Shown here: piece by piece, positions 18,780-20,835 of the stretch
How positions within the stretch are numbered: position 1 is the first letter of the stretch
Layout: every line of letters starts with the position of its first letter
Source: a virus
Virus record (IMG/VR): IMGVR_UViG_3300025168_000296
Coordinates: 1 to 34,663 of that record
Length of the DNA stretch: 34,663 bases
Reading direction: 5' to 3' (one strand)
Translations under genes and position numbers: made by a program
Notes under the pieces: generated by a model
Told to the model about the DNA's origin: nothing
Database searches by the model: none
The model's input: the letters and a program-made list of their open reading frames with translations, nothing else

Positions 18780-19490
18780 ATGAAAAAATTTAATTATGAT
18801 CTTCTTGAAAATCGAAAAGATCAATTAGTTCAAGATAACTCTGGCCCAAGTAGAGTGTATCATGTTCCTAATGGCACATATCCTTCTATCACCAGTTTGC
18901 TCTACCAAATCATTTCTAAAGCAGGAATTGAAAAGTGGAAAGCAAGTGTCGGAGAAGAAAAGGCGAAAAAGATTTCTGCCAAGGCTTCTAGAAGGGGAAC
19001 ACGAATTCATGGATATATTGAAAAGTATCTAGAAGGTAATGAAAATTATTTTGATAAAGCAGCACCAGATCACATGGAGCTTGTTAATCTTGCAATACCT
19101 CAAATAAACGAAAAGATAGATAACATTCGTGGAATTGAAATGGGAATGTGGTCTAATGGATTGAAGGTAGCAGGAACATCAGATTTGGTTGCAGATTATG
19201 AAGGAGAACTTGCAATAATAGATTGGAAAACCGCCACTTATATTAAAAAAGAAGAATACCTACTTTCATACATCTTACAAGGAACAGCGTACTGTATGAT
19301 GCTGTATGAGATGTATGGACTACTTCCAAAGAAAATTGTCATATGTTCGTTGATTAGGTTTGACCCTATGAAATACAATCCTCTATTGGATCAAGACATT
19401 CATATAGATTGGAAAGTATATAATCCCTTAGATTATATCCGTCAGTTAAAATCAGTATGTGACGCTTATCATTTCAGTAGAAAGAGATAA
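18780..19490 (+). CDS. PD-(D/E)XK nuclease (MGME1/RecB-like)
   Basis: The 236-residue protein has a RecB-like nuclease core: VPNGTYPSITSLL, RGTRIHGYIEKYL, E-containing IRGIEMGMWSNGL, then GTSDLVADYEGELAIIDWKT with the D...(D)xK catalytic residues, and a helix LLSYILQGTAYCMMLYEM carrying the conserved Q. These features match the phage exonuclease/MGME1-type group that degrades or trims DNA ends. No Shine-Dalgarno sequence lies next to ATG 18780; the closest GGAGAGG is inside the terminator stem about 25 bases upstream. A late promoter follows the gene. Confidence 0.8.
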   Translation: MKKFNYDLLENRKDQLVQDNSGPSRVYHVPNGTYPSITSLLYQIISKAGIEKWKASVGEEKAKKISAKASRRGTRIHGYIEKYLEGNENYFDKAAPDHMELVNLAIPQINEKIDNIRGIEMGMWSNGLKVAGTSDLVADYEGELAIIDWKTATYIKKEEYLLSYILQGTAYCMMLYEMYGLLPKKIVICSLIRFDPMKYNPLLDQDIHIDWKVYNPLDYIRQLKSVCDAYHFSRKR

Positions 19491-19498
19491 TATAAATA
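19491..19498 (+). promoter_or_regulatory. T4-type late promoter TATAAATA before tmRNA
   Basis: This exact TATAAATA is located one base after the nuclease gene stop and just before the tmRNA acceptor piece. Transcription would start near 19504. No convincing sigma70 promoter is visible here, so the tmRNA may be a late transcript. Confidence 0.7.
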
Positions 19499-19588
19499 TT
19501 TACAGATATACAGGAATTTGTTTGATGACCTGAGAGGGTATCTTATAAGACATCGGGGCAGTTCCGATCAGCTCCACCAAAGAGAGTT

Positions 19589-19681
19589 ATGGAAAAAAAA
19601 TTAATGTGGCTTGCAATTATGATATTGCTTGGATTGTGTTTAACTTATGCCACACTTTATATTGGATATGACTATCGTTGA
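19589..19681 (+). CDS. 30-residue membrane peptide inside tmRNA intervening segment
   Basis: An ATG with AGAGAG upstream opens a 30-codon frame starting MEKKLMWLAIMILLGLCL and ending YIGYDYR. It has two lysines, then about 20 hydrophobic residues, then a polar tail: a single predicted membrane helix with N-in orientation. The frame fills almost the whole segment between the tmRNA CCA end (19579) and GGGGCTG (19683), and its TGA ends two bases before the mature coding piece. Such small hydrophobic peptides include phage holin-like and anti-holin proteins. Translation is inferred; this segment would be removed from the mature tmRNA. Confidence 0.55.
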   Translation: MEKKLMWLAIMILLGLCLTYATLYIGYDYR

Positions 19682-19762
19682 TGGGGCTGAAATAGATTTC
19701 GATTGTAAGAGATAGTATCAGAGAGAACAGATAGGGTGATGACCAACATCGAAACCATAATC

Positions 19763-19810
19763 GCAAATAATTCCGATTATACTGCATACTCTTACGCACT
19801 CGCTGCGTAG
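19763..19810 (+). other. tmRNA proteolysis-tag reading frame
   Basis: From the GCA resume codon the frame reads ANNSDYTAYSYALAA followed by TAG. The C-terminal ALAA matches the ClpXP-recognised end of bacterial tags such as E. coli's (A)ANDENYALAA. Alanine as the resume residue and the A-rich region upstream (GAAACCATAATC) also fit known tmRNAs. Fifteen residues is within the usual tag range. Confidence 0.9.
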
Positions 19811-19902
19811 AGTATAGCTGAGTTAGAGGGTAGTCCTCCGGCCGGTCGCTTGGAAACAGAAGAACCGGCCACTACACACAAACACACACATAAAGGAAAC
19901 AT

Positions 19903-20179: not shown

Positions 20180-20563
20180 ATGAATAAAAAAGTTCATAAA
20201 AGACTAGGGGATGGTAAAATCAATACCTCTGTCGAAATGATTGATGCACAAGAAGAAAAATTATGGGAGCAAAATCCAATGGAAGCATTACGTTATGAGA
20301 AAATTGAAACAAGAAAGAAATTAAATTGGATGGCAAGATATATCTTGTCAATGATTATAGTTTTAACTTTTTTGTTTTTAATATGGTTACTATTTTATGG
20401 TTCATTACCTGCCGAATCAAGAGATCTGGTGAATATCATGGTGGGCGCCTATGTGGCCGTCCTCGCCAAGTCAACTGATTATTGGTTCAAAGATAAAGAT
20501 GATCCAGAACAAAAAGAAGGAGAGGCTGTAGGGAATACAACAAATAATAATGATACGATTTAA
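20180..20563 (+). CDS. Holin-like membrane protein
   Basis: The 127-residue protein has a soluble N-terminal helix of about 50 residues, a strong membrane segment (YILSMIIVLTFLFLIWLLF, about residues 54-73), and a second weaker one (VNIMVGAYVAVLAKSTDYW, about residues 84-102), with a charged, asparagine-rich tail. The second segment resembles the LLGAxxAxxxxxxxYWFG end of the 3TM phage holin families. A holin role beside the SleB hydrolase module is plausible. Alternatives are an inner-membrane exclusion protein or other small membrane protein. The start has only weak ribosome-binding signals. Confidence 0.55.
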   Translation: MNKKVHKRLGDGKINTSVEMIDAQEEKLWEQNPMEALRYEKIETRKKLNWMARYILSMIIVLTFLFLIWLLFYGSLPAESRDLVNIMVGAYVAVLAKSTDYWFKDKDDPEQKEGEAVGNTTNNNDTI

Positions 20564-20604: not shown

Positions 20605-20835
20605 ATGGAAGAAATACTTAATTTGTTTACATCAGAACGTTATAATTCTGAGATTGAAGAAATCGTTACTAGAACAAGGATGAGTTATCTAGATGCGATG
20701 CTATATCATGCAGATGAAAATGGTCTTGAAGCAGAAACGTGTGCTGGGCTGATAAACGTTAAAACTAAAACCAAATTAAGGGAAGAGGCAGAGATATTGA
20801 ATTTTATGCCAAAGACATCAAAACTCCCTATATGA
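20605..20835 (+). CDS. 33: Late transcription coactivator gp33
   Basis: The 76-residue protein has the gp33 pattern of T4-like marine phages: IEEIVTRTRMSYLDAMLYH, then ADENGLEAETCAGLIN, a basic helix KTKTKLREEAEILNFM, and the C-terminal KTSKLPI. In T4, gp33 bridges RNA polymerase and the sliding clamp to activate late promoters. Its place directly before genes 59 and 32 also matches T4 order. It has its own early promoter, almost no leader and no Shine-Dalgarno sequence. Confidence 0.85.
   Translation: MEEILNLFTSERYNSEIEEIVTRTRMSYLDAMLYHADENGLEAETCAGLINVKTKTKLREEAEILNFMPKTSKLPI

Follow-up and report, generated by a model that had tools for sequence, protein, structure and literature searches.

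Permuted tmRNAs that mature into two pieces are a known family, reportedly going back to Keiler in 2000 and to Sharkady and Williams in 2004. Among dual-function RNAs, SgrS/SgrT and RNAIII are familiar cases. Another is VcdRP, which encodes the 29-aa protein VcdP (PMC8672173). RNase P and tRNase Z have been proposed as the processing enzymes of permuted tmRNAs (PMC3985003). A 2025 survey of 97,179 tmRNAs records a tRNA-Ala in one spacer and a repeat element in another, with no mention of an ORF, and the same source describes ORF-bearing group I introns of tmRNA genes that encode homing endonucleases (PMC11915505). Among cultured phages, Melnitz has a two-piece tmRNA together with a glutamine riboswitch (PMC9004378).

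The window, that is, the whole stretch of DNA analysed here, is the 34.7-kb IMG/VR virus record IMGVR_UViG_3300025168_000296 (34,663 nt). A cmscan search places a permuted tmRNA of Rfam family RF04321 at 19517-19810, with 84.5 bits against a gathering threshold of 47 and with model positions 1-213 complete. The CCA of the acceptor piece ends at 19579 and the coding piece begins with GGGGCTG at 19683, giving a 7-bp acceptor stem (GGGGCTG with CAGCTCC) in which G3-U70, A73 and the encoded CCA are all present; the U-G pair of this stem is invariant across 39 sequences. The tag frame starts with the Ala resume codon GCA and closes on a hydrophobic AA end, the tags of the relatives having been taken from ARAGORN. 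That program did not detect the tmRNA of the window, but the call stands because Rfam, the acceptor stem, G3-U70 and the tag agree, and by its sequence the RNA is a member of the RF04321 family for which two-piece processing and trans-translation are predicted. ARAGORN is also blind to several ORF-bearing relatives (L202, L255, L258), those tested being detected by Rfam, and genes of this kind are therefore probably under-annotated. The features to which the text refers are as follows.

18780-19490, plus strand: PD-(D/E)XK exonuclease, upstream neighbour (PHROG 298, Pfam PF12705).
19491-19498, plus strand: TATAAATA, a T4-like late-promoter motif located 89 nt upstream of the end of the CCA (motif definition from PMC9004378).
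19517-19579, plus strand: tmRNA acceptor piece, with T-arm, 3' acceptor strand CAGCTCC, A73 and encoded CCA (cmscan RF04321, sequence).
19580-19682, plus strand: tmRNA intervening spacer, 103 nt, predicted to be cut out as the tmRNA matures (same boundaries in 57 of 57 peptide-encoding relatives).
19580-19591, plus strand: 5' arm of the extension helix, including the ribosome-binding region and start codon (folding, covariation).
19581-19586, plus strand: purine run AGAGAG resembling a ribosome-binding site, just after the CCA (AGGA or AAGGA in most relatives; sequence, relatives).
19589-19681, plus strand: nested ORF of 30 aa, MEKKLMWLAIMILLGLCLTYATLYIGYDYR, with stop TGA at 19679-19681 and one predicted membrane helix (sequence, relatives, synonymous test).
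19667-19678, plus strand: 3' arm of the extension helix, ORF codons 27-30 (YDYR; folding, covariation).
19683-19872, plus strand: tmRNA coding piece, with 5' GGGGCTG, tag frame and downstream hairpin, the 3' end being approximate (cmscan for 19683-19810, the rest from sequence).
19763-19810, plus strand: tmRNA tag frame, ANNSDYTAYSYALAA followed by TAG (sequence, cmscan).
20605-20835, plus strand: gp33-type late-transcription coactivator, downstream neighbour (PF16805).

The T4-like genes for gp33, gp59 and a gp32-type protein lie shortly downstream of the tmRNA. A 127-aa membrane protein at 20180-20563, likewise downstream, has weak matches only, to PHROGs of unknown function, and was picked out by eye as a holin candidate. 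Of 63 relatives, 22 also have the late-promoter motif, 75-91 nt upstream of the end of the CCA, and some relatives have a sigma70-like TTGACA-TATAAT that overlaps it. The motif, carried by about one third of the relatives, points to expression in the course of infection, with late timing in the relatives that have it.

The first-pass annotation had pointed out that the segment between the two tmRNA pieces is almost filled by a 30-codon frame preceded by AGAGAG, and both the coordinates and the purine run proved right; a single base (T19682), not two, separates the TGA from the mature coding piece. Upstream of the ATG the window reads AAGAGAG, where most relatives have AAGGAAG or AGGA. The presence of an ORF within the tmRNA spacer is thus confirmed. 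The single membrane helix that had been predicted for the peptide is borne out by a best 17-residue hydropathy of 2.26, and spacers of at most 120 nt encode peptides of 26-30 aa that carry a membrane-helix-like stretch (hydropathy at least 1.6) in 50 of 50 distinct cases, against 21% of shuffled ORFs. The peptide of the window has no PHROG or Pfam match.

A profile search with this peptide returned 57 IMG/VR loci, in every one of which the ORF lies exactly between CCACCA and GGGG, and it was found nowhere among the viral contigs as a free-standing gene. Isolate phages gave no match to the peptide or to the tmRNA DNA, and the cyanophages tested gave no match to RF04321. The one match in bacterial genome bins is likewise inside a tmRNA, on a 4.5-kb contig that is probably a misbinned phage contig. 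The Flavobacteriales MAG bin of this match (G003, the bin of L204; L274-L276) holds three permuted tmRNAs above the cut-off, two of them with phage-type spacers that encode membrane peptides, one of these being a different peptide, and phage contigs have for that reason probably been misbinned there.

Whether the frame is coding was assessed from the substitutions on a tree of 42 distinct 30-codon ORFs, compared with the same substitutions placed on random sites in 500 draws. There were 88 synonymous changes against a null of 44.6±5.8, a count reached in 0 of the 500 draws, and the other two frames gave no synonymous excess in the same test; pN/pS in the main subfamily is 0.32. Two other classes of spacer ORF, which are described below, behave alike, with 103 synonymous changes against 65.9±7.2 for the class named after its DLWD motif and 25 against 12.7±3.0 for the Melnitz type (0 of 500 draws each). 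Frameshifts, stops or a lack of synonymous bias in related phages had been named in advance as evidence against the frame; 39 aligned relatives show neither indel nor internal stop and the synonymous excess is twofold. One membrane-peptide ORF does carry an internal deletion (L094/L192), which reflects decay or sequencing error, as do the frameshifted long-spacer ORFs of L115, L253 and L264. Dinucleotide shuffling yields a comparable ORF by chance in 4-13% of cases for single spacers of the 30-codon family, and one spacer ORF taken alone is weak evidence; for 25 dissimilar long spacers the chance is 0.003-0.14 each and the product about 1e-39. A chance ORF is ruled out by the synonymous test and the shuffles together, and comparative sequence analysis thus shows that the spacer of the window encodes a protein under purifying selection, a 30-aa peptide with one predicted membrane helix.

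When the precursor of the window is folded, the acceptor stem runs on into the spacer. Across 32 dissimilar spacers, pairing of spacer base i with base -5-i is canonical in 87.5% of cases for i=0-9, compared with 39-49% after a register shift of 1-4 and 60.7±2.5% (maximum 69.1% among 2000) when the 5' flank of one spacer is matched with the 3' flank of another. All of A-T, T-A, C-G and G-C occur at several helix positions, and the flank duplex energies have a mean z of -2.9, with 26 of the 32 spacers below -1.5. Within the family of the window 98.5% of cells pair, with compensatory changes at three pairs. The covariation in these alignments shows that the first ~12 nt of the spacer pair with the last ~12 nt before the TTGAT flank in a fixed register, extending the acceptor stem. 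In most classes the ATG stands at spacer index 7-11, that is, inside the helix, and the purine-rich ribosome-binding region follows directly after the CCA; Melnitz-type ORFs start at index 19-20, just past the helix. This link between the translation start and the acceptor stem is absent from the first-pass annotation. Since a helix of ~12 bp pairs the ribosome-binding region and start codon with the end of the ORF, translation and tmRNA folding should compete, a step that we infer from static pairing.

The reading that we prefer, with a probability of roughly 0.7, is that the spacer is a nested small-protein gene, one transcript serving both as pre-tmRNA and as mRNA, with translation and maturation mutually exclusive. 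The same helix could be taken to mean that the spacer is only a structural pre-tmRNA hairpin and its frame an untranslated by-product of RNA constraint in AT-rich DNA. The extension helix is indeed conserved, the spacers of the cultured phages HTVC008M and Mosig hold a hairpin only, and a comparable chance ORF arises in 0.3-14% of single-spacer shuffles. Such an account is nevertheless highly improbable, as it is largely refuted by a synonymous bias that is confined to the ORF frame in three unrelated classes, and has to contend also with the gap-free alignment of the 39 relatives, the membrane-helix-like character of all 50 short-spacer ORFs, and a protein that is kept in the middle of the spacer, outside the helix. 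Pure RNA constraint was rejected on the ground that the strong helix, although real, leaves unexplained why selection in mid-spacer is specific to one frame.

Among 25 relatives found through the upstream exonuclease, the spacer encodes the same peptide or a very different 52-aa ORF, or is short and without an ORF. A scan with a motif of the tmRNA only, with no ORF criterion, gave 117 matches on 113 contigs and 66 distinct spacers. Long spacers (at least 85 nt) have an ORF in 55 of 55 distinct cases on 79 contigs, and in 54 of these it almost fills the spacer, the remaining one being intact with a longer tail; short spacers of 13-42 nt have an ORF in none of 11 distinct cases (34 of the 113 contigs). 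The ORF, missing from 11 of the 66 distinct spacers, is therefore dispensable. With all loci pooled there are 97 distinct spacers, and those longer than 120 nt encode soluble proteins. The largest long-spacer class is a basic soluble family with a DLWD motif at its end, and members of this family are encoded by free-standing genes away from tmRNAs as well. The loci with the free-standing gene for the small basic protein (L207-L212, L216 and L221) may be a source of spacer cargo; elsewhere (L213/L179), through recombination or misassembly, a DLWD ORF is fused to a tmRNA coding piece and the 330 nt upstream contain no acceptor piece. One further ORF class, MWIYKCDAGTYTEDSFFKLLYVIFSHRFSHLVKGEGFID, was seen once (L258, 1245-1400). 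In L011, L012, L015 and L022 an inserted ORF, MSMIKLYVKTHNKTGLKYLGKTVRED..., which by eye resembles a GIY-YIG homing endonuclease, follows the exonuclease, and in L011, L015 and L022 the tmRNA lies downstream of it.

Exchange of spacer contents can be seen directly in pairs of loci: L214 carries the DLWD protein and L002 the membrane peptide between nearly identical tmRNA flanks, and L205 differs in cargo from the window on a nearly identical acceptor piece. Because the slot holds varied small proteins, or none, across marine T4-like phages, the sequence comparisons show the tmRNA spacer to be an exchangeable cargo site, a point that the first-pass annotation had missed. It might be argued that such a site is no more than a neutral, moron-like landing place, where the protein has a function of its own and is expressed without any regulatory link to the tmRNA. 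The cargo swaps would suit this argument, as would the DLWD copies outside tmRNAs and the many tmRNAs that carry no cargo; yet the membrane-peptide family is found only within tmRNA spacers (57 of 57), and the start codon lies in the covarying acceptor-stem helix in nearly every class, a coupling beyond what a neutral site needs. We regard a neutral site as doubtful, though still worth considering, and keep to the nested gene whose translation and tmRNA maturation exclude each other.

The tmRNA slot between the exonuclease and gp33 is common to the window, the Pelagibacter phages HTVC008M and Mosig, and the Methylophilales phage Melnitz. In Melnitz (L236, MZ577097) the spacer, within 46013-46345, contains an unannotated ORF, MFKWLSKTRLVVITRDYFRERNRKADAKIPKYLSG..., that represents a third spacer class. 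Its ATG is preceded by GGAGAAG, and a terminal helix of ~9 bp encloses the ORF; the type is conserved, with synonymous bias, in 18 IMG/VR loci. The Melnitz ORF extends 13 codons into the mature coding piece, and its counterparts in L255-L257 end within the spacer. The Melnitz tmRNA (PMC9004378) is thus like that of the window in its locus, its permuted form and the possession of a spacer ORF; its ORF is, however, unrelated to the peptide of the window, runs into the mature piece, and is absent from the published account.

As for mechanism, it can be proposed that in the nascent RNA the start region would stay free until the 3' arm is made ~90 nt later, so that a ribosome may load in the meantime. 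Ribosomes would then translate the spacer ORF once or a few times, and on ribosome exit the acceptor stem and extension helix would close; the closed helix would hide the start codon, block initiation, and commit the RNA to the tRNA-processing cleavage that yields the two-piece tmRNA. Because an initiating ribosome masks the CCA side and a terminating one the GGGG side, any single molecule should be either translated or matured at a given time, and this exclusion would limit the dose of membrane peptide and tie it to tmRNA output. The helix over the ribosome-binding region and start could also keep translation very low. That a pre-tmRNA might double as an mRNA, as the first-pass annotation had ventured, fits all the data and appears well supported by the evolution of the sequences. 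A more specific version, to which we would give somewhat less than an even chance, is that of a self-switching mRNA, in which each pre-tmRNA either carries a ribosome making the cargo or folds to tmRNA, the availability of ribosomes sets the trade-off, and the cargo is exchanged between phages. It is also conceivable that the act of translation is what matters, the frame serving as a leader-peptide-like sensor through which ribosome occupancy controls tmRNA maturation while the peptide itself is unimportant. The occurrence of unrelated peptide sequences in the same slot agrees with this, and since the ORF starts and ends within the extension helix, no ribosome can occupy either end without opening it; but the amino-acid sequence is conserved (as the pN/pS value attests), and this conservation, together with the free-standing DLWD genes, indicates that the products matter, which makes a mere sensor rather unlikely.

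Returning to the gene product of the dual transcript, the peptide is most likely an inner-membrane accessory peptide, with lysis timing as one option. A stronger proposal is that it is a holin, pinholin or antiholin, with the tmRNA locus belonging to a lysis cassette. The peptide is small with one helix, a late-promoter motif lies upstream, and in the window a CwlJ-like endolysin (PF07486) is encoded 1.7 kb upstream of the tmRNA and a membrane protein just downstream. A lysis cassette was rejected as an explanation, the endolysin being near the tmRNA in the window and not in L053/L222, a 177-kb relative whose tmRNA encodes a peptide of the same family and adjoins glycosyltransferase-like and nuclease-like genes. 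The peptide lacks the database matches that might have favoured a holin, and in many relatives it is missing or replaced by a soluble basic protein. Because the slot is empty or holds soluble proteins elsewhere, and because the tmRNA of the 177-kb relative lies away from lysis genes, the peptide was not filed as a holin or antiholin; the holin- or antiholin-like role first assigned to it was set aside, the lysis-gene neighbourhood not being conserved and other phages filling the slot with soluble basic proteins, and we consider it distinctly improbable.

The wider meaning is that tmRNA spacers, treated as waste, hold protein genes under selection in many marine T4-like phages, and that small proteins can hide there from gene-calling and tmRNA-finding programs alike. 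The cultured phage Melnitz has such a spacer gene, skipped by annotation, which makes the question testable. With this arrangement dual-function RNAs gain a further class, and it suggests that translating a transcript is directly coupled to maturing it into an RNA that rescues translation; if the self-switching version is true, cargo output and rescue capacity would be set against each other. The claim that the arrangement is new agrees with the open-licence literature searched, in which no earlier report of a spacer ORF in a permuted tmRNA was found; the spacers surveyed here are phage-type.

Set beside the known systems, the locus shares with the permuted tmRNAs of RF04321 the order of acceptor piece, spacer and coding piece, the G3-U70 stem, the encoded CCA and a tag ending in ALAA, and differs from them in that its spacer is a protein gene. 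As with group I intron endonucleases, the protein gene sits in a segment that the tmRNA precursor loses; in contrast to them, the locus appears to have neither a self-splicing intron nor an endonuclease, its proteins are of 26-59 codons, and the slot is the natural spacer of the permuted gene. In a Pfam scan for endonuclease motifs that covered the 30-aa peptide of the window and one DLWD protein, neither gave a match. As with VcdRP and VcdP, a single transcript would act as RNA and encode a protein of ~30 aa, an ORF under protein-level selection being found between the two tmRNA pieces and its translation being predicted; the known dual-function cases, however, are base-pairing sRNAs, whereas here the RNA is the precursor of a ribosome-rescue tmRNA and the ORF lies in the part that is cut away on maturation. 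Permuted tmRNAs and dual-function RNAs are thus kinds already known, and it is the protein gene in the excised tmRNA spacer that appears to be new.
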